From Candidatus Poribacteria bacterium (GTDB lineage Bacteria > Poribacteria > WGA-4E > WGA-3G): DNA of 64,000 nt. Below are positions 41,646-50,580 of this stretch, one piece after another. The DNA is taken from the NCBI GenBank assembly GCA_028824125.1, contig JAPPES010000140.1, positions 93,359 to 157,358 of the forward strand, given 5' to 3'. The position numbers and the translations under genes were made by a program. Numbering within the stretch: the stretch's first letter is position 1; the number at the start of each line of letters is the position of its first letter. A model generated the notes under the pieces. It saw only the letters and a program-made list of their open reading frames with translations. It did no database searches and had not been told where the DNA came from.

Positions 41646-42029
41646 TCAAATTTTAGTCCTATCCTTGCTCAAGTTTAGAGTTAGAATTCCTAAAATGACA
41701 TTATGAACTCTAACGGGTTGTATTAATAAATATTGGTGGGAATATCCCACCTTCTGCAAATAAAATAGCCCGCAACAAAACTCCCCAAGGAAGGTAGAGA
41801 GCGCACGGGCGTGATGAACAGATCTACGGTTACTACCGATATTCGCTTGTTCGTTAGCGAACGTATTATTACAATCGTTAAATTCAGTGAAGGGGGGGGT
41901 AAACTTATAGTTAATAAATCGGATAATAGACGAAGGCATAGAAGGGGTGGGAATAGACCAAATGTAGTGTTGACTTAGTCTCATTAAGGTCGTTTTTTTT
42001 ACATTATGGTCACTATTAGTATTTTGCAT
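41646..42029 (-). CDS. Doubtful hypothetical ORF
   Basis: A 127-codon frame from the ATG at 42029, preceded by AAGGA. It encodes a basic, Ser/Asn/Tyr-rich sequence without visible domains and includes a run of eight Gs on the plus strand. I recognise nothing similar. The gap 41554-42440 otherwise holds only repeats, so this may be spurious. Confidence 0.25.
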   Translation of the reverse strand: MQNTNSDHNVKKTTLMRLSQHYIWSIPTPSMPSSIIRFINYKFTPPFTEFNDCNNTFANEQANIGSNRRSVHHARALSTFLGEFCCGLFYLQKVGYSHQYLLIQPVRVHNVILGILTLNLSKDRTKI

Positions 42030-42228
42030 TTTGTCATCCTTTGTAAGGTTTGAGCGTTTATCCCGATACTGACCGGATAACAATTACCCCTCATGTTGCC
42101 TAAAATAGACAAAACATTTGTTTTTGCAGAACAAATTGTATCTATAGTTTCTATTACACAAATTTTCTGAACTCGTTTATAATTATACACAACTTAAAAA
42201 AAATGTCAAGAAAAACAAATTATATTTA

Positions 42229-42330
42229 GGATTTACGCATTCTACTTGTTTTTTTAAGCGTTACTGTATTCGTAGTAGCACAATTTATCGTGCTACTTTT
42301 AGAAATGCAGACTCATTTTTGCGTAAGTCC
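42229..42330. repeat. Short inverted-repeat element with GGACTTACGCA-type ends
   Basis: AGGATTTACGCAT at the left is inverted as TGCGTAAGTCC at the right (42320-42330). The inside has GTAGCACAATTTATCGTGCTAC, a small hairpin. A single similar end, AGGACTTACACA, lies near 41628. Confidence 0.6.
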
Positions 42331-42440
42331 CGAATTGTAAGAGAAATCATACAAAATTTCGCAAAAAAAGTCAATCAATTTAAGTTTTTAACATGCAACC
42401 GATCCAAAAAAGGTTATGAATGATTATGCAGTTCAGCACC

Positions 42441-44057
42441 TCACTCCGCGTTTTCTGTTATAACTAATCTTTGATTCACAGCGATGTTATCCAATGTCTG
42501 AACAATACCGCTGGGCCACTTAATAATAATTTTATCAACCTTGTTATAGTTTGCGAGTCCAAACTCTACTTCCGGACTGTTCTGTGATAGGTAGCTGCTG
42601 CCTGCGGTAACTTCACGAATCTGATGGATATCACCAGTGATAACCTCAATGCGCGCGCCAATTCCATCACGGTTGCTCTCCACACCAACAGTACGGATAT
42701 AGATCCAATTTTGTCGATTTCCACCATCATTGCGGAGTAACCTCGGTTTTTCTCCGTTGTTAACGATTAGCAGATCTAAATCTCCATCTGCATCATAGTC
42801 TGCAGCAGCGACACCTCTGCCTACACCCGGTGATTCAAGTTGTCGGAGGCCTACCTGTTCAGATATATCAGTAAAAGTGCCATCTCCGTTGTTGCGTAAC
42901 ATAACATCTGGCTGACCGTGGGGTTCCCACGACGCAGGATCAATATGTCCAGCGGAAAAGAATAGATCGAGGTCTGTGTCGTTATCCATATCAAAAAACA
43001 CCGTTCCCCAACATGTCTTCCCAAGCCCAGACTCAAAAACACCACTTTGCGCGGAGACATCTGTAAAAGTACCGTCTCCATTATTTCGGTAGAGGACGTT
43101 GTTTTCGTCAAGCCAATTTGTGACGAAAAGATCTAACTTACCATCGTTGTCATAATCTCCCCAAGCAACACCCATTCCGCTGCGAATATCTCCTGTCCGA
43201 CTTCTCGCATCGGGTTGGTTCGTATTCGTAAACGTCATTTCCCCACCGTTTCGATAGAGAATATTCTGATCAGTGTCATTCGCGAGGTAGATATCTAAAT
43301 CTCCATCAGTGTCATAGTCTGCTGCGGCGACACCGAGTGTTAAGTGGAATCCTCCATTGACCTTAGATGCATCAGTAACATCAATGAACCCACCATCCCC
43401 TTTATTTACATAAAGGATGTTTGCTTGTCCAAAAAAATCGTAAGGAAAGAAAACCTCATCCCCTTGTGGAACTTTGGTGTATTCAATATAGTTGCCCACG
43501 TAAAAATCAAGGTAGCCATCGACATCAAAGTCGCCCCAGGCAATACCTGACCCAAAGCCTGTATGCCCAATTCCTCCCGCACCCGAAGTAAAACGTTTGA
43601 ACGTTCCATCGCCTCTGTTTAAGTAGAATACATTCGCTTTATAGTTTGTAACGTAAAAATCTGCATCGCCATCGTTATCATAATCAGCGAAGGCACATCC
43701 CATTCCCCAACCTGTGTCACCAACACCCGCGATGTCTGTCACATCCGTGAACGTTCCATTGCCATTATTTTGGTAAAGCACGTTTTTGGGAAGAATTGCT
43801 CCGGGTTCTGGTCTCACTGCAGTGCTATTGACAATATATAGATCAAGCGTGCCATTGTTATCATAATCTCGCCACGCTGCGCCAGAACCCACCAGCGCAG
43901 GCACTACACGATGATCTATACCACCAGCATGTATGAAATGGATACCTGCTTCTTCGGTAACATCCACAAACTGGATTTCAGCGGTGTATCCGTTCCACAT
44001 AAGGATTATGTTTGAAAATATTATAATGGTGAAAACAGTAACATTCCTGTTTAGCAT
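42441..44057 (-). CDS. CRTAC1 family FG-GAP repeat protein with ASPIC/UnbV domain
   Basis: A 538-residue exported protein. After a signal sequence (VTVFTIIIFSNIILMWNGYTA) come about seven FG-GAP-type repeats with calcium-binding loops of the form DYDNDGDADFYV and DFDVDGYLDFYV, forming a beta-propeller. The C-terminal 90 residues (VGVESNRDGIGARIEV ... PEVEFGLANY) are the ASPIC/UnbV domain. The family is common in planctomycetes, Poribacteria and Acidobacteria and is thought to act at the cell surface. The ATG at 44057 follows GAAGG; one at 44084 has no ribosome site. Confidence 0.9.
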   Translation of the reverse strand: MLNRNVTVFTIIIFSNIILMWNGYTAEIQFVDVTEEAGIHFIHAGGIDHRVVPALVGSGAAWRDYDNNGTLDLYIVNSTAVRPEPGAILPKNVLYQNNGNGTFTDVTDIAGVGDTGWGMGCAFADYDNDGDADFYVTNYKANVFYLNRGDGTFKRFTSGAGGIGHTGFGSGIAWGDFDVDGYLDFYVGNYIEYTKVPQGDEVFFPYDFFGQANILYVNKGDGGFIDVTDASKVNGGFHLTLGVAAADYDTDGDLDIYLANDTDQNILYRNGGEMTFTNTNQPDARSRTGDIRSGMGVAWGDYDNDGKLDLFVTNWLDENNVLYRNNGDGTFTDVSAQSGVFESGLGKTCWGTVFFDMDNDTDLDLFFSAGHIDPASWEPHGQPDVMLRNNGDGTFTDISEQVGLRQLESPGVGRGVAAADYDADGDLDLLIVNNGEKPRLLRNDGGNRQNWIYIRTVGVESNRDGIGARIEVITGDIHQIREVTAGSSYLSQNSPEVEFGLANYNKVDKIIIKWPSGIVQTLDNIAVNQRLVITENAE

Positions 44058-44156
44058 CTGAAGTGCCTTCTTAATCAGAGTCATTTTCTGACTTTGTTCA
44101 GTGTTTAAGTGTAGATTCTACTATAATGGAACTTGGAAAAATCAGGAAGGATAACC

Positions 44157-44870
44157 TTATTGAACAACATCACCTTCAACAGGTTCAACTTGGACTTGGA
44201 TATTTTTCAGGTACTCAATGGCGCGTTCAATTTCATCTGAAGTACCCCGTATTTCTAACATCACCCAGCCCGATTCTTCAGTTACGTTAGCGCGCCGGAT
44301 ATTGGTGATTACTCGAAACTGTTGTCCAATATTGTAAACAATAGGCTCAGTGATTTTTTGGGGTGGAAAAGTTAGGCGCACCTTTAAAGAGGTCATTTGA
44401 ATTGCTCCTGATGGAGTCTTTTGGACTGGAACTTCAACAAAATCTGATGTAATTTCATCCCATGCAAAAGCTTTGACAACACGGATTGTGTCTTCGTAGA
44501 TAGAAATAACGAGGTATACCACGCCTGGATATGCAGGTTCGTCCCACATCATCGCATCCGATTTATCCTTTTCAGAGAAATAAGCCTCGTGATTCGGGTG
44601 TGAATGGTAAAACGCCTTAATCGGACGATGCTCCATTTCTGCCTCTTTATGAATGGCAATTAAGTCATCGGGGTGCATTAAATATGCTGTGCGCGCATCG
44701 CGCGGGTATGCGGCGGGGTCCTCCCGATGCTTTTCATTTTGGATATTGCGGCACGGCTTGACAAATTCCTGCGTCCCTGTGTGCAGTATTACACCACAGC
44801 ATTCCTCAGGAAATTGTGCTTTTGCATGTGCACAAATTTCATTTAAAGTTTTCGGTAGTAAAGTAACCAT
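44157..44870 (-). CDS. JAMM/MPN metalloprotease with C-terminal NIL domain
   Basis: A 237-residue protein in two parts. Residues 1-150 form a JAMM zinc isopeptidase: E22/E23 in FPEECCG and H89-x-H91-x7-S99-x2-D102 (HSHPNHEAYFSEKD) are the complete motif. Residues about 155-237 (LKVRLTFPPQKITEPIVYNI ... TSDEIERAIEYL) match the NIL domain known from the tail of MetN. Prokaryotic JAMM proteins of this kind (Mec+, QbsD) trim or release sulfur-carrier proteins, and the carrier gene lies 70 bases upstream in the same operon. The NIL domain suggests sulfur-amino-acid sensing, an inference. Confidence 0.85.
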   Translation of the reverse strand: MVTLLPKTLNEICAHAKAQFPEECCGVILHTGTQEFVKPCRNIQNEKHREDPAAYPRDARTAYLMHPDDLIAIHKEAEMEHRPIKAFYHSHPNHEAYFSEKDKSDAMMWDEPAYPGVVYLVISIYEDTIRVVKAFAWDEITSDFVEVPVQKTPSGAIQMTSLKVRLTFPPQKITEPIVYNIGQQFRVITNIRRANVTEESGWVMLEIRGTSDEIERAIEYLKNIQVQVEPVEGDVVQ

Positions 44871-44940
44871 ATTGTGAAAAACTTAATGGGTAATCGCACT
44901 CAGGCAGATTCTGGATCCGCCCGAATGCGACAATAGTATT

Positions 44941-45228
44941 TTAGGAAAGGTTTTTGCCGCCAGCAATGGCAGGAATTATTGATATTTCAGCACCATCGGT
45001 GACCGGAGTCGCTTTTCCATCAAGAAATCGGATATCTTCGTCATTGAGATAGATATTCACAAACCTACGGATGTTTCCACCCTCATCACAAAGACGTTCT
45101 TTCATTCCTGGATAATCTGAGTCCAAATTTTCAATGATGGTTTCAATATCAGTACCTTCAGTTTTAATCTCCGCGAGATTTTGCGTTAAACGTCTCAGCG
45201 GGGTTGGAATACGAACTGTAACAGCCAT
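44941..45228 (-). CDS. MoaD/ThiS-like sulfur-carrier protein with capped C-terminus
   Basis: A 95-residue ubiquitin-fold sulfur carrier. The body (VRIPTPLRRLTQN ... RFVNIYLNDEDIRFLDG) and SIIPAIAGG match the CysO/MoaD group. The Gly-Gly is not terminal: four residues, KNLS, follow. In related systems a JAMM protease removes such a cap before thiocarboxylation, and a JAMM gene is directly downstream. A strong GAGGAGG site precedes the ATG. It would donate sulfur for cysteine synthesis. No adenylating E1-like partner is in the window. Confidence 0.88.
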   Translation of the reverse strand: MAVTVRIPTPLRRLTQNLAEIKTEGTDIETIIENLDSDYPGMKERLCDEGGNIRRFVNIYLNDEDIRFLDGKATPVTDGAEISIIPAIAGGKNLS

Positions 45229-45315
45229 ATTTTCCTCCTCTATCGGCTCAGAGTTCTGATGCCGTGCTTTTTGTAATTATGGTAGTGGTAAAGAATTCCA
45301 CTGTTCTATTTAGTG

Positions 45316-46074
45316 TTAAATGGCGTAATGTAATCCACACTCTTTGTTGTTTTCTTCAGTATCTATTCCGTTTTGCCAACGCCATCGCCCCGCTCTTTTG
45401 GGTTCACCTGGGCGAATTCGCGTTGTACAAATCATACATCCGAGTGAATCATAATAGTGTCCATGAGCATCCGGTTTAAAGAGCGGATTCACAGGCACAT
45501 CGTTCTCACGTACAAAATCCCACACCTGTTCGGTTGTCCAGTGAATTAATGGGCTCACCTTGAGGATAGGATGCGTCTTAGATGAGATGATTTCTGTCTT
45601 CTGGAAATTTTGTCGAGTTTCAGATTGATCTCTTCGCGTGCCAGTAATCCAAACATCTAACGTTTCTAAAAGTTTCTGCATCGGTCTAATTTTTCGGATT
45701 TCACAACAATACTTCTGTTTTGCTTTGCTGTCAAAAAAGAGGTGTTCTCCGTGTTCAGCCACCATATTTTTGACCTCAGTCGTGTCAGGTTGAATGCGTT
45801 CAATCTTAATACCGTAGCGTTCTTCAACTTGATCAAAGAAAGCGTAGGTTTCAGGAAAGAGACGATGTGTGTCTATCGTACACACTCTAAAAGGTAATTT
45901 GTTTTCTGCAGCGAGATGTATTTGAACCATGCCCGACAACTGCCCACTTGTTACAATAGCTGCTCGATCATTAAACTGCTTAAAGAGACAGAAAAGGATT
46001 TCCTGAGGGTCTTTCTTTAAGCTTATTTGCTGCTTCAATCTCATCATTGAAACAGTTTCAATTTGAAATGCCAT
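45316..46074 (-). CDS. cysH: Adenylyl-sulfate (APS) reductase, CysH family
   Basis: A 252-residue reductase of the PAPS/APS reductase family. C123-C124 in KYCCEIRK, C213-x-x-C216 in GCMICT and the active-site Cys C246 in ECGLHY are all present. The paired cysteines bind a [4Fe-4S] cluster and mark APS rather than PAPS reductases. TGTRRDQSETR binds the nucleotide. It makes sulfite for cysteine synthesis. The nucleotide loop reads VTSGQLSG, a little unusual. AGGAAAAAG precedes the ATG; cysK lies 25 bases upstream in the operon. Confidence 0.93.
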   Translation of the reverse strand: MAFQIETVSMMRLKQQISLKKDPQEILFCLFKQFNDRAAIVTSGQLSGMVQIHLAAENKLPFRVCTIDTHRLFPETYAFFDQVEERYGIKIERIQPDTTEVKNMVAEHGEHLFFDSKAKQKYCCEIRKIRPMQKLLETLDVWITGTRRDQSETRQNFQKTEIISSKTHPILKVSPLIHWTTEQVWDFVRENDVPVNPLFKPDAHGHYYDSLGCMICTTRIRPGEPKRAGRWRWQNGIDTEENNKECGLHYAI

Positions 46075-46099
46075 TCGCTTTTTCCTGTTTAGACTCCTT

Positions 46100-47050
46100 T
46101 CATGATAGCGTTTCCATTATATCGGTTTCAAGCTCAAAATAGCGACTTAAACTGAAGTAACGCTCTCCAGTATCTGGCAGAATAGTGACGACAGTTTTAT
46201 CAGGTCCCTGTGCTTTAGCTACCTGTAAAGCCGCATGTACATTTGCACCAGACGACATGCCCACCAATAAACCCTCTTTTTTTGAAATATCCTTCATACT
46301 TTGATACGCTACCTCTTCAGAAACCGCAATCACATCATCAATAATATCCACATTTAAAACCTCTGGGACCATTCCTGCCCCCAATCCATCAATCCGTGTT
46401 GGTCCAGGCATTCCACCTGAAAGTACTGATGAAACCAAAGGTTCTACAGCGATAACCTTAGTTTTAGGGTTATGCGATTTAAGTACTTCCCCAACACCTG
46501 TTAACGTTCCCCCTGTTCCTACTCCAATCACAACAAAATCGATGTTACTGCCTACTGCCTCTAAAATTTCAACCGCTGTTGTTTCACGATGGATCTGTGG
46601 GTTGGCAGCATTCGTAAATTGGTTCGGCATATAGTGTCGTGAATTTCGACGAAGGATTTCTTCTGCTTCCCAGATTGCACTTGCCATCCCGCCGTGTTCT
46701 GGTGTAAGCACTATTTCGGCACCAAAAGCGGAAAGGAGCGCATATTTTTCACTACTAACGTACTCGGGCATTGTCAAAATTACACGATAACCGCGTGCTA
46801 CCCCAACAATAGAGAGCCCGATTCCTGTGTTGCCTGCTGTCGGTTCTACTATTGTATCACCCGGTTTTAGGACACCGCGCTCCTCAGCATCAACTATCAT
46901 GCTATAACTGATACGATCTTTGATACTACCACCAGGGTTATAGAATTCCAACTTCGCAAAGATTGTTGCATCCTCTTTACCTGGCAACGCATTGAGTCGG
47001 ATCATCGGCGTATTTCCGATAAGTTTTGTCAGGTCTTTAGCAACTTTCAT
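46100..47050 (-). CDS. cysK: Cysteine synthase
   Basis: A 316-residue PLP-dependent O-acetylserine (or O-phosphoserine) sulfhydrylase. The PLP Lys is K44 in GGSIKDR; PTAGNTGIG binds substrate and GVGTGGTLTGVGEVL binds phosphate. In mycobacteria a CysM paralogue uses a protein thiocarboxylate as sulfur donor; given the neighbouring carrier and JAMM protease, that donor is possible here. Its ATG overlaps the stop of the Rrf2 gene (ATGA), showing translational coupling. Confidence 0.94.
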   Translation of the reverse strand: MKVAKDLTKLIGNTPMIRLNALPGKEDATIFAKLEFYNPGGSIKDRISYSMIVDAEERGVLKPGDTIVEPTAGNTGIGLSIVGVARGYRVILTMPEYVSSEKYALLSAFGAEIVLTPEHGGMASAIWEAEEILRRNSRHYMPNQFTNAANPQIHRETTAVEILEAVGSNIDFVVIGVGTGGTLTGVGEVLKSHNPKTKVIAVEPLVSSVLSGGMPGPTRIDGLGAGMVPEVLNVDIIDDVIAVSEEVAYQSMKDISKKEGLLVGMSSGANVHAALQVAKAQGPDKTVVTILPDTGERYFSLSRYFELETDIMETLS

Positions 47051-47484
47051 ATAAAGAATGGATGCGAATGTGTCGGTTGCGACAACTTTTCATATTTTCG
47101 CGCATGACAACAGAGTTCATGCAGGGTTTTTGTGTTTAATGCCTCGCGGACATTTTCCTCAATCTCCGCAAAAAACGTAACTAATTCAAATGATTCCTGT
47201 GCTTCAAATCCCTCCGTAAAATTTACAGGACCTTCTACAGCAGTAAAAATATCCCCTATCCGAATTTTCTCTGGTGCCAGTGCTAAACTATATCCACCAT
47301 CAGGCCCGCGTCGACTTGTCGTCAACCCAGCATGTTTGAGTTGTAACAGAAGTTTTTCCAAAAATGGGCCAGGGATACAACGTTTTTCGGCTAACACTGT
47401 GACCGATACGAATTCTTTGCGATATTGCAGACCGAGCTCTAACATCGCGCAAACTGCATATTTCAACTTAGCGGACAACTGCAT
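47047..47484 (-). CDS. Rrf2 family transcriptional regulator
   Basis: A 145-residue winged-helix regulator of the Rrf2 family (IscR/CymR/RirA relatives). KLKYAVCAMLELG at the start, IPGPFLEKLLLQLKHAGL as recognition region and RRGPDGGYSLA wing are typical. Two adjacent cysteines occur in HELCCHARK, but the three-Cys cluster pattern of IscR is not evident. Position at the head of a cysteine operon suggests a CymR-like role in sensing sulfur. AGGAGGG precedes the ATG, and a promoter with two copies of a 19-bp repeat lies just upstream. Confidence 0.92.
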   Translation of the reverse strand: MQLSAKLKYAVCAMLELGLQYRKEFVSVTVLAEKRCIPGPFLEKLLLQLKHAGLTTSRRGPDGGYSLALAPEKIRIGDIFTAVEGPVNFTEGFEAQESFELVTFFAEIEENVREALNTKTLHELCCHARKYEKLSQPTHSHPFFI

Positions 47485-47527
47485 CTGACACCCTCCTTTT
47501 TAATAGCAACCAATTCAGGTTACTACA

Positions 47528-47586
47528 ATTATAACATATCTTACCAAAAAAGTCAAATAATTATGCTATATCTTACCAAAAAAGTC
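47528..47586 (-). promoter_or_regulatory. Cysteine operon promoter with two 19-bp operator-like repeats
   Basis: On the minus strand, TTGACT (47556-47551), a 17-base spacer and TATAAT (47533-47528). ATATCTTACCAAAAAAGTC (plus-strand reading) occurs exactly twice, at 47536-47554 inside the promoter and at 47568-47586 upstream. The two copies are 32 bases apart, about three helical turns. They are probable binding sites of the Rrf2 regulator. Confidence 0.75.
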
Positions 47587-47756
47587 GGGTTTATTCTTGT
47601 ATTAGCGTGTTGAAGTTTTTGCAGCAGTTTCACACTTAGTCTTGACATGAACCAATCAAATATTAATGAAAAAATAAAAACTGTTAATAATGATACTTCA
47701 ACTTATTAAAAAAGAATATCCTTGACAAATACCTAATTTATGTGTCACAATAAATA

Positions 47757-47920
47757 TATAGTGTACTTTGAAAGTATTGGGAAACTTTGTTTTAGAACAG
47801 AGCGGATAACAGAAGTTGTCCAACACACAAACTGTTAGTTTGTGCCGATGAGACACGGGAAATGCCATTGGGCGAATGCGCGTATGGCATTCGCCATGAT
47901 TCATACCGTTGATTTACTAA
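47757..47920. repeat. MITE-like end followed by dispersed repeat modules
   Basis: TATAGTGTACTTTGAAAGTA starts at 47757, then a CACAAACTGTTAGTTTGTG hairpin near 47825, then GAATGCGCGTATGGCATTCG and the inverse AATCAACGGTATGAATCATG module (47893-47915). The region 47587-47976 has no supported ORF. Confidence 0.6.
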
Positions 47921-47976
47921 CAGTTTGCGCTACAGAAGTATCCTACAAGGCTTGGAAGGCAGTTTGAGGGTTTCAC

Positions 47977-48624
47977 ATGCAAACGGATCTAAATCACATA
48001 AAAGAGCTTCCGCTTTTTCCGTTGAATGTTGTACTGTTTCCTGGCGGTTTGCTACCGTTACACATTTTTGAGCAACGGTATCGCGAAATGGTGAAGTTTT
48101 GTATCAGAAACGAATCGTCTTTTGGTATTGTAATGATTAAAGAAGGTGAAGAGGTAGGAGACGCGGCAACACCGTGTAAAGTTGGTACAGCGGTTGATTT
48201 AGTTGACGTTAATCGGTTCCCAGATGGACGTATGAACATCATGATATCTGGACACTCTCGGTTTGAGATATTAGAAGTTCACAATGAACTTCCGTATTTA
48301 GTCGGACAAGTGCGGATGTTAGATTCGTTAAACGCTGAGCCTGACACAAATTTGGAAGATATTGCTGCCGAGACGCGTAAACTTTATATTGAATATGAAA
48401 CTTTATCAAGCTACTTGATATTTAGCTGGCAGCCGCCGGATGAAAATCCAGAACATCCCCAACAATTAGCATATCAAATTGGAACGCGCCTGCGTTTACC
48501 ATTAAATGAGAAACAAGAACTTTTAGAAATCATCTCATTTGACGAACTCCTTAAACGCGAAATTGAAATTTTGAAAATACAGAATCAACAAATAGCTTTC
48601 CAATTGAAATCACGAAATAATTGA
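47977..48624 (+). CDS. LON peptidase substrate-binding domain protein
   Basis: A 215-residue protein consisting of the N-terminal LON domain only. ELPLFPLNVVLFPGGLLPLH with IFEQRYREM is its hallmark, followed by GTAVDLVDVNRFPDGRMNI and GHSRFEI. There is no ATPase or protease part. Stand-alone LON-domain proteins are widespread in bacteria; the role is uncertain. The C-terminus is a helical segment, as usual. Confidence 0.92.
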   Translation: MQTDLNHIKELPLFPLNVVLFPGGLLPLHIFEQRYREMVKFCIRNESSFGIVMIKEGEEVGDAATPCKVGTAVDLVDVNRFPDGRMNIMISGHSRFEILEVHNELPYLVGQVRMLDSLNAEPDTNLEDIAAETRKLYIEYETLSSYLIFSWQPPDENPEHPQQLAYQIGTRLRLPLNEKQELLEIISFDELLKREIEILKIQNQQIAFQLKSRNN

Positions 48625-48774
48625 AAGATAATCAACAAGACACGTTTTTAATGATAAGTAATTATAAGATTCGAGATTAAGTTTCTTGACATATTGCCAA
48701 TGTATAATTGTTATACGAAACGACTTCAATAGTGTTAACATTGGTGCATATCACATCAGTAGGTCAACAGATTC

Positions 48775-49404
48775 ATGGCGCTCAAGGCTCCTATTCACCA
48801 ATTCACTGAAACTCGAACGATCCATATTTCGGGGAGAGATTTCTTATATATCAGCAATCTGATTTCTATGTTCAGGCTGCTGATTGCTCCACTCATCTTT
48901 TGGGTAATTTACAAAGGAAATTATGAACTTGCTGTTGTCATAGGAGGTATAGCGATTGTTTCGGATCTGCTGGATGGGTTCTTTGCGCGTGTGCTAAATC
49001 AACACTCGGAACTTGGTTATATCCTTGATCCTGTTGCGGACAAGTTTGCTATTGGTGCAGGAATTTTCGCCCTTGTCTTATCAAATACCACTTTTCCAAA
49101 ATGGGCATTCGCTGCTGTGATTTTCCGAGACGTCGCAATTGTGTTGGGCAACGTCTATCTGGCGTATAAGGCAAAAATGATTACGCGTTCTAATTGGTGG
49201 GGAAAATGTACAAGTTTTTCTTTGTCAATTGCTGTGATACTTTATCTTATTCGTGCGATACAACCAAACCTGTTCCCGGAGCGGATCGCCTTTTTTACCC
49301 TCTGCGTTGCTCTTGTGTTTGTTGTAATTTCAGCGGTGAGTTATGCACGGCACATGTTTCGTGTGCTAAAAACGGAGGCAATTCAAACGAAAGTTAAACA
49401 TTAA
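48775..49404 (+). CDS. pgsA: CDP-alcohol phosphatidyltransferase (PgsA-like)
   Basis: A 209-residue membrane enzyme that transfers a phosphatidyl group from CDP-diacylglycerol to an alcohol, probably glycerol 3-phosphate. The signature D67-G-x2-A-R-x8-G81-x3-D85-x3-D89 (DGFFARVLNQHSELGYILDP then VADK) is complete. Five or six membrane spans are visible. The symbol is the likeliest one, but head-group specificity is not proven by sequence. TTGACA (48686-48691) with nearby TATAAT-like sequences lies upstream. Confidence 0.85.
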   Translation: MALKAPIHQFTETRTIHISGRDFLYISNLISMFRLLIAPLIFWVIYKGNYELAVVIGGIAIVSDLLDGFFARVLNQHSELGYILDPVADKFAIGAGIFALVLSNTTFPKWAFAAVIFRDVAIVLGNVYLAYKAKMITRSNWWGKCTSFSLSIAVILYLIRAIQPNLFPERIAFFTLCVALVFVVISAVSYARHMFRVLKTEAIQTKVKH

Positions 49405-49489
49405 AATTATCATAGGAATTGACGTAATCTACAGAAGTAACATAAGAAATTATCGTAGAAACAAATTATAACAGTTTAGGAAATATAAT

Positions 49490-49921
49490 ATGGAACTTTA
49501 TTTGAAGCCATCAGATATTGCTGAAGTGATCGGTGTTGATCAAGAAATTATAAAACAGACATTAGATCGGAAACATCCAGAGATTGAACCTTTTCTACGG
49601 ACTGTCGCTGCACCTGCAGAAGAGGCAGAAGGGAAACCTAAGGCGATTCTCCAGTTAAGGATCGACGGTTTAGCACCATTGATAACTCAGCTTAGTTATA
49701 ACATCCCAACAAACGAGATAATTGAAAACCTTATTTGCCAAGTTGTCCACATCGCCTACCTTCGTGAAAACACCGAAAATTTGGAAATAGAAATTGCTGA
49801 ACTTCAAGAAAAAGTAAAATCTCTTCAAGAGGAAAGGGCTGATTTGCGGGTACAGATTAACAACTTACAAGAAGAACAATCGAAGAGTTGGAAAAACCGA
49901 TTATTCAAACTCGGCGGTTGA
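49490..49921 (+). CDS. Hypothetical coiled-coil protein
   Basis: A 143-residue protein. Residues about 1-85 look globular (LYLKPSDIAEVIGVDQEII), and 85-135 form a clear coiled coil (NLEIEIAELQEKVKSLQEER). AGGAAATATAAT precedes the ATG. It may be cotranscribed with the membrane-protein gene 32 bases downstream. No family recognised. Confidence 0.65.
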   Translation: MELYLKPSDIAEVIGVDQEIIKQTLDRKHPEIEPFLRTVAAPAEEAEGKPKAILQLRIDGLAPLITQLSYNIPTNEIIENLICQVVHIAYLRENTENLEIEIAELQEKVKSLQEERADLRVQINNLQEEQSKSWKNRLFKLGG

Positions 49922-49953
49922 ACGCACAAAGTGAATATACTAATTGATTACTT

Positions 49954-50580
49954 ATGGGAAAACAGAAACGAAATCAGCTAATTGCTATCAGTTTTTTTAT
50001 TATTAGTTTTATTTTTCTTTATGTAGAACCAGAAAACATATCTTGGCTACCGGATCGCATAGCGCAAAGTAGTGTTTTGCTAAAAGGCATCTCGTTTGTC
50101 CTGCTGAGTATCGCAGCGATTCTCGCAAGCATTGCTTTTGATAATAAGCGGCGAATTGCAATAATATCAGCCATCGGTTTAGCAATAGGACTCGGTTTTC
50201 TTTATTTTCCTGTTCCTCTGATTTTGCGCGGTTCAGCGTTTCATCTTCTATTTGCAAGTGCAATTTCGTTTGGCATGACAACCCCTGCAACACGACTTGC
50301 GACAGCTGTATCTATAATTTGTACTTGTATCGGCATTGGTTTTCTCTATCAACCAGCATTCCCATCACTTAGTGGAACAGCACTATATCTTCTACTGCCG
50401 GGGATTACTGTTTTTTCGATCGTCTATTCACAAAAAGCTATATGCGAACGGATCTCAATTGGCTTAATAACACTCGGTTTAATTTCTCTCTGTCAACCGT
50501 TTTTTATACTGTTTTACCAAACCGGTTTTCAATTGCTGCTTGCTGGCTTAACAGGATTTATTGTAGTGGCACATCGCTAA
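49954..50580 (+). CDS. Hypothetical polytopic membrane protein
   Basis: A 208-residue highly hydrophobic protein with six or seven predicted membrane spans and very short loops, starting MGKQKRNQLIAISFFIISFI. The positive N-terminus suggests a cytoplasmic start. No family is recognised. It follows the coiled-coil gene by 32 bases and is followed by a TCTCCTTT/AAAGGAGA inverted repeat (50583-50603). Confidence 0.65.
   Translation: MGKQKRNQLIAISFFIISFIFLYVEPENISWLPDRIAQSSVLLKGISFVLLSIAAILASIAFDNKRRIAIISAIGLAIGLGFLYFPVPLILRGSAFHLLFASAISFGMTTPATRLATAVSIICTCIGIGFLYQPAFPSLSGTALYLLLPGITVFSIVYSQKAICERISIGLITLGLISLCQPFFILFYQTGFQLLLAGLTGFIVVAHR

Follow-up and report, generated by a model that had tools for sequence, protein, structure and literature searches.

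A conserved poribacterial operon of sulfate-reductase, cysteine-synthase and sulfur-carrier genes: a probable variant of the CysO route with a JAMM-NIL fusion

The window considered here, 64,000 nucleotides of contig JAPPES010000140.1 (assembly GCA_028824125.1) from a Candidatus Poribacteria bacterium, carries a five-gene operon encoding an Rrf2-family regulator, a cysteine synthase (CysK), a sulfate-assimilation reductase (CysH), a sulfur carrier and a JAMM metalloprotease fused to a NIL domain. The gene content and its conservation suggest, with a probability of about two in three, that the operon represents a modified form of the CysO/Mec+/CysM route, with sulfur entering cysteine as the thiocarboxylate of the carrier. 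Three features of a CysO-type pathway are apparent, i.e. the carrier, the JAMM protein and the presence in the genome of an E1 (adenylating) enzyme; the operon synthase is of the CysK type, so that a CysM-type, O-phosphoserine-using synthase within the operon is lacking. A preliminary description of the window had proposed that the operon couples sulfate reduction to the carrier-thiocarboxylate route; the conserved unit that it presumes is supported, by sequence and gene order only, whereas the details given for NIL, Rrf2 and CysM are unsupported in the form stated.

The open reading frames (ORFs), strand and spacing of the five genes, all on the minus strand, were as described earlier (ORF map and Pfam scans; genome of 5.59 Mb in 162 contigs, 94.4% complete). 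The first gene, rrf2 (47047..47484; Pfam Rrf2, 98 bits; CymR-like), overlaps cysK by 4 bases (ATGA). The latter (46100..47050; PALP, 248.5 bits), encoding a pyridoxal phosphate (PLP) cysteine synthase, is followed, after gaps of 25, 87 and 70 bases, by cysH (45316..46074; PAPS_reduct, 146 bits), the gene for the CysO-like carrier (44941..45228; ThiS, 53.5 bits, cut-off 22.5) and that for the JAMM-NIL fusion protein of 237 residues (44157..44870). Both domains of the latter lie in one ORF, the JAMM metalloprotease domain spanning residues 1-147 (44430..44870; Prok-JAB, 66.3 bits, cut-off 25) and the NIL domain residues 159-237 (44160..44396; PF09383, 53 bits, gathering score 24).

When the JAMM-NIL sequence was compared with 84 genomes of the phylum, matches were found in 80; as read from the rows, the JAMM part is matched in 75 and the NIL part only in 5. 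Sixty stretches from 56 genomes were taken, 54 of which hold a JAMM gene, one per genome; a further 21 genomes with JAMM, all of genus g3, lie outside this sample. The order CysK-CysH-carrier-JAMM on a single strand is kept in 50 of the 54 JAMM loci, so the arrangement is not due to chance, and the cysK neighbours are conserved in relatives, a point on which the preliminary description had made its proposal depend. Of the four exceptions, two (L046, L065; loci are given L numbers and contigs C numbers) are truncated by contig ends, and two (L081, L085) retain JAMM and NIL but lack CysK, CysH and the carrier. Loci L086-L089 keep the order with extra genes in between (CysK-CysH-CysC-carrier-E1-DsrE/F/H-like-CysM-JAMM), all four including genes for adenosine 5'-phosphosulfate (APS) kinase, a CysM-type synthase and DsrE/DsrF/DsrH-like proteins; a TusA gene is present in three (L086, L087 and L088, the last judged by its length to be the same contig as L177) and was not found in L089, and L086 has an additional oxidoreductase-like gene. 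Judged by gene families, these four operons would represent close to a full sulfate-to-cysteine gene set.

Beyond the phylum sample, a search of a collection of named species returned 80 loci with JAMM relatives, 46 titled Poribacteria, including all the closest, and 34 not; in 7 of the 34, genes for CysM, CysK, a carrier or E1 occur close to JAMM. One metagenome record titled Klebsiella pneumoniae (L159) encodes a JAMM protein 49% identical to that of the window, the title probably being misassigned.

The best solved relative of the carrier is CysO itself (3dwg_C, 78 bits over residues 1-91), and all 12 aligned rows keep its Gly-Gly. The complete HxHx7Sx2D motif ascribed to the JAMM domain in the preliminary description is indeed present (H89-x-H91-x7-S99-x2-D102), and these residues together with E23, five in all, are invariant in 11 aligned rows. 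The genome has three ThiS-family carriers, the other two of which adjoin, by eye, a MoaE-like gene (L004) and a ThiO-like gene (L006). A quite different function for the pair, though a highly improbable one, would be as a ubiquitin-like modifier system, in which JAMM would detach the carrier from proteins to which it had been conjugated, as for archaeal desampylase and the SAMPs, with the linkage to sulfur genes providing a sulfur-status signal. The top NCBIfam models are in fact desampylase for JAMM and SAMP1 for the carrier, and the best Foldseek match of the JAMM-NIL model is Pyrococcus furiosus JAMM1 (5lda), solved with SAMP2, the NIL part matching MetN; however, both NCBIfam scores are under their cut-offs (56.2 bits against 130 and 52.6 against 60, respectively), and the conserved neighbours are metabolic genes.

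The carrier of the window extends past Gly-Gly, its C terminus being AIAGGKNLS. Such tails are common, 1-7 residues following Gly-Gly in 42 of 52 carriers while 10 stop there, and can differ between very similar operons, e.g. ISLS at L043 and none at L044. The E1 of this family works on a free Gly-Gly end, and a tailed carrier therefore requires a peptidase. JAMM proteins trim comparable carrier tails in two described sulfur-transfer pathways, and here the JAMM protein is the obvious candidate, which, from the sequence pattern, probably trims the tail as well. Among 24 loci compared, the distance from carrier to JAMM exceeds 1 kb in five, all with tailless carriers and falling in three lineages on the tree, and the remaining 19 carriers are all tailed. 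The link between tail and JAMM distance is not strict, because, outside this set, the carriers of L073, L076 and L078 are tailless despite a nearby JAMM; further examples of carriers with a tail are those of L165, L170 and L181. At L044, L055, L056, L058 and L059, all with tailless carriers, M48 peptidase-like genes (by eye) separate carrier and JAMM, and at L044, L058 and L059 a gene for a caspase-like protein (by eye) is also found between them.

The operon CysK scores 398.7 bits with TIGR01139 (cut-off 350.95), and the solved chains nearest to it bear the names cysteine synthase or O-acetylserine sulfhydrylase. A cysteine synthase is thus encoded in the operon as first described, but a correspondence of this cysK to CysM is improbable, and the CysM role probably falls instead to a CysM-like gene on contig C30. 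The C30 protein shares 48-49% identity with the CysM-type enzyme encoded next to JAMM in L086/L087, and a match to it was found in 72 of the 84 genomes. The 32 solved matches of the C30 protein at E 1e-45 do not include mycobacterial CysM, to which the L086 enzyme does show a match (3dki/3dwg).

With respect to sulfate reduction, the CysH ORF has the four-Cys pattern noted previously, i.e. CC and CxxC as cluster ligands and a catalytic ECG (within ECGLH). It scores 223.3 bits with PRK02090 (cut-off 154) and 201.8 bits, under the cut-off of 235.3, with the APS reductase model, so that its assignment to APS rather than 3'-phosphoadenosine 5'-phosphosulfate (PAPS), as made in the preliminary description, is not settled. 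The enzyme may use either APS or PAPS, because the APS kinase of the L086-L089 operons would make PAPS. A protein of the sulfite/nitrite reductase family, of 814 residues and with a fused C-terminal TusA domain, is encoded on contig C77 of the same genome (L189:5149-7593, plus strand), and ORFs starting like this TusA-fused reductase occur near and upstream of the E1 gene in two of seven loci (L197, L202).

An E1-like adenylating enzyme was anticipated elsewhere in the genome, and two full-length ThiF matches, one of them running across a TGA codon, attest to the presence, if only that, of such enzymes. The first E1 (L001), of 268 residues and without a rhodanese domain, is encoded on contig C11, unlinked to the operon; the E1s that do lie within the operon (4 of 54 loci, L086-L089) are 70-72% identical to it, and among the matches listed E1s of at least 70% identity without a stop are present in 71 of 84 genomes. 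A conserved protein of 192-193 residues (DLQQINIKVF...; L192:9537-10112, minus strand; L196-L203) is encoded upstream of the Cys-type E1 in all nine loci inspected from families f1-f4. It was considered as a second Gly-Gly carrier and rejected as such, a GG end being present in only 3 of 9 rows; it has no Pfam match, and neither its sequence nor its fold gave a convincing one elsewhere.

The second E1 (L002:1408-2646, minus strand, contig C6) carries a rhodanese domain at its N terminus, and the codon for its E1 active-site Cys is an in-frame TGA. E1 matches with one TGA occur in at least 69 of the 84 genomes; among 12 phylum loci in which the codon was inspected, it is TGA in 10 (L002, L204-L211, L213), the motif not being seen in L212 and L214. 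The same codon is TGA in a rhodanese-MoeB E1 (L170:6471-7718, plus strand) on a contig not titled Poribacteria, where the gene sits in a CysM-JAMM-E1-carrier operon (one contig). A CCxGGG hairpin resembling a selenocysteine insertion sequence (SECIS) is located 17 nucleotides downstream of the TGA in 9 of 11 such E1 genes, a full match being lacking in L211 and L213; it is found in none of 12 Cys-type E1 genes, three of which encode the same VLGVL stretch. The genome of the window also encodes SelB (349.8 bits, above the cut-off) and tRNA-Sec, both in one 4.9-kb locus.

The NIL domain varies in its relationship to JAMM. It is fused in 9 of the 54 JAMM loci (the window and eight others of the same genus); in 22 the next gene encodes NIL separately, and in 23 no adjacent NIL was found. 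Where separate, the two genes overlap slightly, have an in-frame stop between them, or are up to about 200 bases apart, and the fused NIL part starts at a Met where the separate NIL gene starts in several relatives. On a tree of CysK, CysH and carrier, built from 23 chosen rows, two changes are required to explain the fused label, although the fusion may also stem from a single origin. From these comparisons, the fusion is judged to be a recent joining of neighbouring genes in some members of a single genus. The view of it as an ancient or defining trait was rejected given the 22 separate genes and the two changes on the tree, as was an assembly artefact, fusion being seen in nine genomes. JAMM and NIL stay together away from the operon in L081 and L085, which argues for a shared function. 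The NIL domain of the window is the sole NIL match in its genome, and the flanks, several of them short, of the 34 JAMM loci not titled Poribacteria showed no NIL. In the distant members L090, L091, L093 and L094, NIL is apart from JAMM and adjoins, by eye, a DnaJ/CbpA-like gene, that of L094 having been family-scanned. The AlphaFold2 model of JAMM-NIL has a predicted local distance difference test score (pLDDT) of 86.9 and a predicted template modelling score (pTM) of 0.63, each domain being good and residues 153-157 poor, the pattern expected of a flexible tether. No paper linking a NIL domain with JAMM, the JAB domain or a sulfur carrier was found in the literature searched, outside of which most subscription journals fall.

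A profile of 15 NIL sequences matches MetN chains (2qsw, 3dhx, 3dhw; C2 domain) at E values from 1e-6 to 4e-4, the sole other match having an E value of 0.36. In the available parts of a study on Escherichia coli MetN, the C2 (NIL) domain binds methionine and the N295A variant fails to do so (PMC12357092). The residue matching N295, as derived by arithmetic from the aligned ranges and not from inspection of the 3dhw alignment itself, is the N of TNIRRAN, which is N in 29 of 35 NIL motifs and S in 6; the conserved C-terminal EGDVV(Q) falls beyond the range matched to MetN. The NIL domain may thus be an accessory, MetN-like and possibly amino-acid-binding domain. The earlier, more specific proposal that it binds a sulfur amino acid is unsupported as stated, its sole basis being the MetN homology and the Asn kept in 29 of 35 motifs. 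The methionine binding reported for MetN bears on a further alternative, i.e. that the carrier feeds sulfur to homocysteine (compare the reported protein-thiocarboxylate methionine pathway), with NIL sensing or binding methionine or homocysteine. Homocysteine synthesis in Desulfovibrio needs NIL/ferredoxin proteins, according to the portion of that work available (PMC5764234), and the genome has one strong PF01053 match. This gene, however, is on another contig and is below each of the 25 NCBIfam cut-offs shown (methionine gamma-lyase being first), and cysteine synthases are found in the operon and in the L086/L087 operons, such that a methionine branch is very unlikely.

Taken together, the evidence favours cysteine synthesis via the carrier, and the steps of such a pathway can be proposed. 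CysH would reduce APS or PAPS to sulfite, and the C77 sulfite-reductase-family protein, with its TusA domain, would make and pass on reduced sulfur. The unlinked C11 E1 would adenylate and then sulfurate the Gly-Gly end of the carrier, from which JAMM would previously have removed the short C-terminal tail, as the Gly-Gly-plus-tail pattern suggests. The C30 CysM-like enzyme, and perhaps also the operon CysK, would combine the thiocarboxylate with an activated serine to give carrier-cysteine, which JAMM would hydrolyse to cysteine and carrier. NIL, once a separate neighbour and now tethered to JAMM in the fused members, would act as an accessory domain, possibly by binding an amino acid, and Rrf2 would probably repress the operon under sulfur sufficiency.

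Several observations weigh against this carrier-dependent route. The 10 of 52 carriers that stop at Gly-Gly would require no trimming, the C30 CysM-like gene fails to reach any of the NCBIfam cut-offs shown, and no CysM, CysK, carrier or E1 genes were found in the flanks, several of them short, of 27 of the 34 JAMM relatives not titled Poribacteria. The presence of E1 is not specific to this carrier, since with three ThiS-family carriers in the genome the E1s may serve others, and for 23 of 54 JAMMs no neighbouring NIL was found. In addition, the combination of a CysK-type operon synthase and a sulfite reductase means that free sulfide plus CysK could suffice, and a route via acetylserine is possible given that contig C140 encodes a divergent hexapeptide protein resembling CysE, 424 residues in length and with a long N-terminal part (L224:1255-2529, minus strand; 67 bits against a cut-off of 210.65). 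No match above the CysE cut-off was found in this genome, and in the phylum only 6 of 84 genomes have one; weak CysE-like matches similar to that of L224 are widespread in the phylum, and the absence of CysE was accordingly rejected as proof of phosphoserine use. CysK might then make cysteine from free sulfide and acetylserine, with the carrier and JAMM serving another product, e.g. a thiolated cofactor, base or metabolite, a proposal consistent with the TIGR01139 score, the sulfite reductase and the CysE-like protein. It is nevertheless considered unlikely, as the carrier resembles CysO, two other ThiS-family carriers are present beside the MoaE-like and ThiO-like genes (by eye), and linkage of CysM, JAMM and carrier is seen both in L086-L089 and at some loci from other phyla.

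An extension of the carrier-dependent cysteine route is also conceivable, although improbable, in which both E1s charge the cysteine carrier, one of them as a selenoprotein with selenocysteine in place of the active-site Cys and a carrier selenoester as intermediate, and in which NIL, by sensing methionine or cysteine, gates release by JAMM. If this were true, a selenoprotein now filed under molybdopterin synthesis would be an enzyme of a cysteine pathway.

Regulation by Rrf2, as suggested in the preliminary description, is plausible, but no more than 20 of the 54 JAMM loci have a recognisable rrf2 beside the operon, and no convincing operator was identified. The rrf2 product can be assigned only to the Rrf2 superfamily, scoring 81.1 bits with the CymR model against an equivalog cut-off of 195. 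A predicted sigma-70-type promoter (TTGACT-N17-TATAAT; 47528..47556, minus strand) lies 43 nucleotides before rrf2. The pattern TTGAC-N16..19-TATA(A/C)T is located 36-50 nucleotides before rrf2 at all 19 of the rrf2 loci inspected; of 23 inspected loci that lack rrf2, 13 have it before cysK, both counts being given without a shuffle baseline. The mean best score of a dyad after the -10 box is 4.7 against 3.5 for shuffled sequences at the 19 rrf2 loci, and 4.2 against 3.8 at the 13 without; this is no more than suggestive of an Rrf2 operator, with few single loci persuasive across the 19 and 13 compared. TTGGT elements are present at -171, -95, -63 and -29 before rrf2 in the window, and an element, CTTACCAAAAAAGTC, occurs twice before rrf2, 32 bases apart (47540-47554 and 47572-47586), one copy overlapping the promoter. 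An Rfam scan of positions 42000-50000 of the window gave 0 matches, the sole match in plasmid records was a weak one to a phage tail protein, and PADLOC returned nothing for JAMM or the carrier and weak E1-E2 matches for E1.

If the carrier-dependent route operates as proposed, carrier-protein cysteine synthesis, best known from mycobacteria, extends to most of the sampled genomes of an uncultured phylum, with the gene order tying it to sulfate reduction; the NIL partner suggests that feedback control of the release step may exist. Compared with the mycobacterial CysO/Mec+/CysM/MoeZR system, in so far as it is covered by the available part of the source (PMC3227635), there is in common a Gly-Gly carrier, a JAMM protein, a PLP cysteine synthase and an E1 elsewhere in the genome. 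The poribacterial system differs in having cysH and rrf2 in the operon, a CysK-type synthase in the operon with a CysM-like gene elsewhere, a carrier tail in most loci, a NIL gene or domain, and both an E1 without rhodanese (L001) and an N-terminal rhodanese-E1 with a TGA codon (L002).

Operons combining JAB, ThiS/MoaD and E1 with cysteine synthase or PAPS reductase were predicted by Iyer et al. 2006 (PMC1779556; rows 4c-4e in the portion available), so the gene types are shared and a coupling of sulfate assimilation, JAB and carrier had been predicted already. In that portion NIL is not mentioned, and cysteine synthase and PAPS reductase are in separate rows; by contrast, here they are in one operon and E1 is unlinked. 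With the C2/NIL domain of MetN, the present domain shares the profile match and, in most motifs (29 of 35), an Asn corresponding to N295 of the E. coli protein, the remaining 6 having Ser; it occurs as a soluble protein of 80-100 residues or as the tail of JAMM, rather than as the tail of an ABC ATPase.

Finally, a selenoprotein MoeB was described from marine metagenomes, with 11 sequences in 2005, and tied to molybdopterin biosynthesis in the passages available (PMC1088965); it is also entered in tables of reviews (PMC13188914; PMC9312934), likewise available in part. The TGA-containing E1s share with it a MoeB/ThiF-type E1 with TGA as the predicted selenocysteine codon, and differ in context, that of L170 being a CysM-JAMM-E1-carrier operon, a setting that is new for selenoprotein MoeB as far as the consulted passages show. 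A selenocysteine E1 in or beside the carrier route thus offers a concrete hypothesis for a selenoprotein family known from sequence since 2005.

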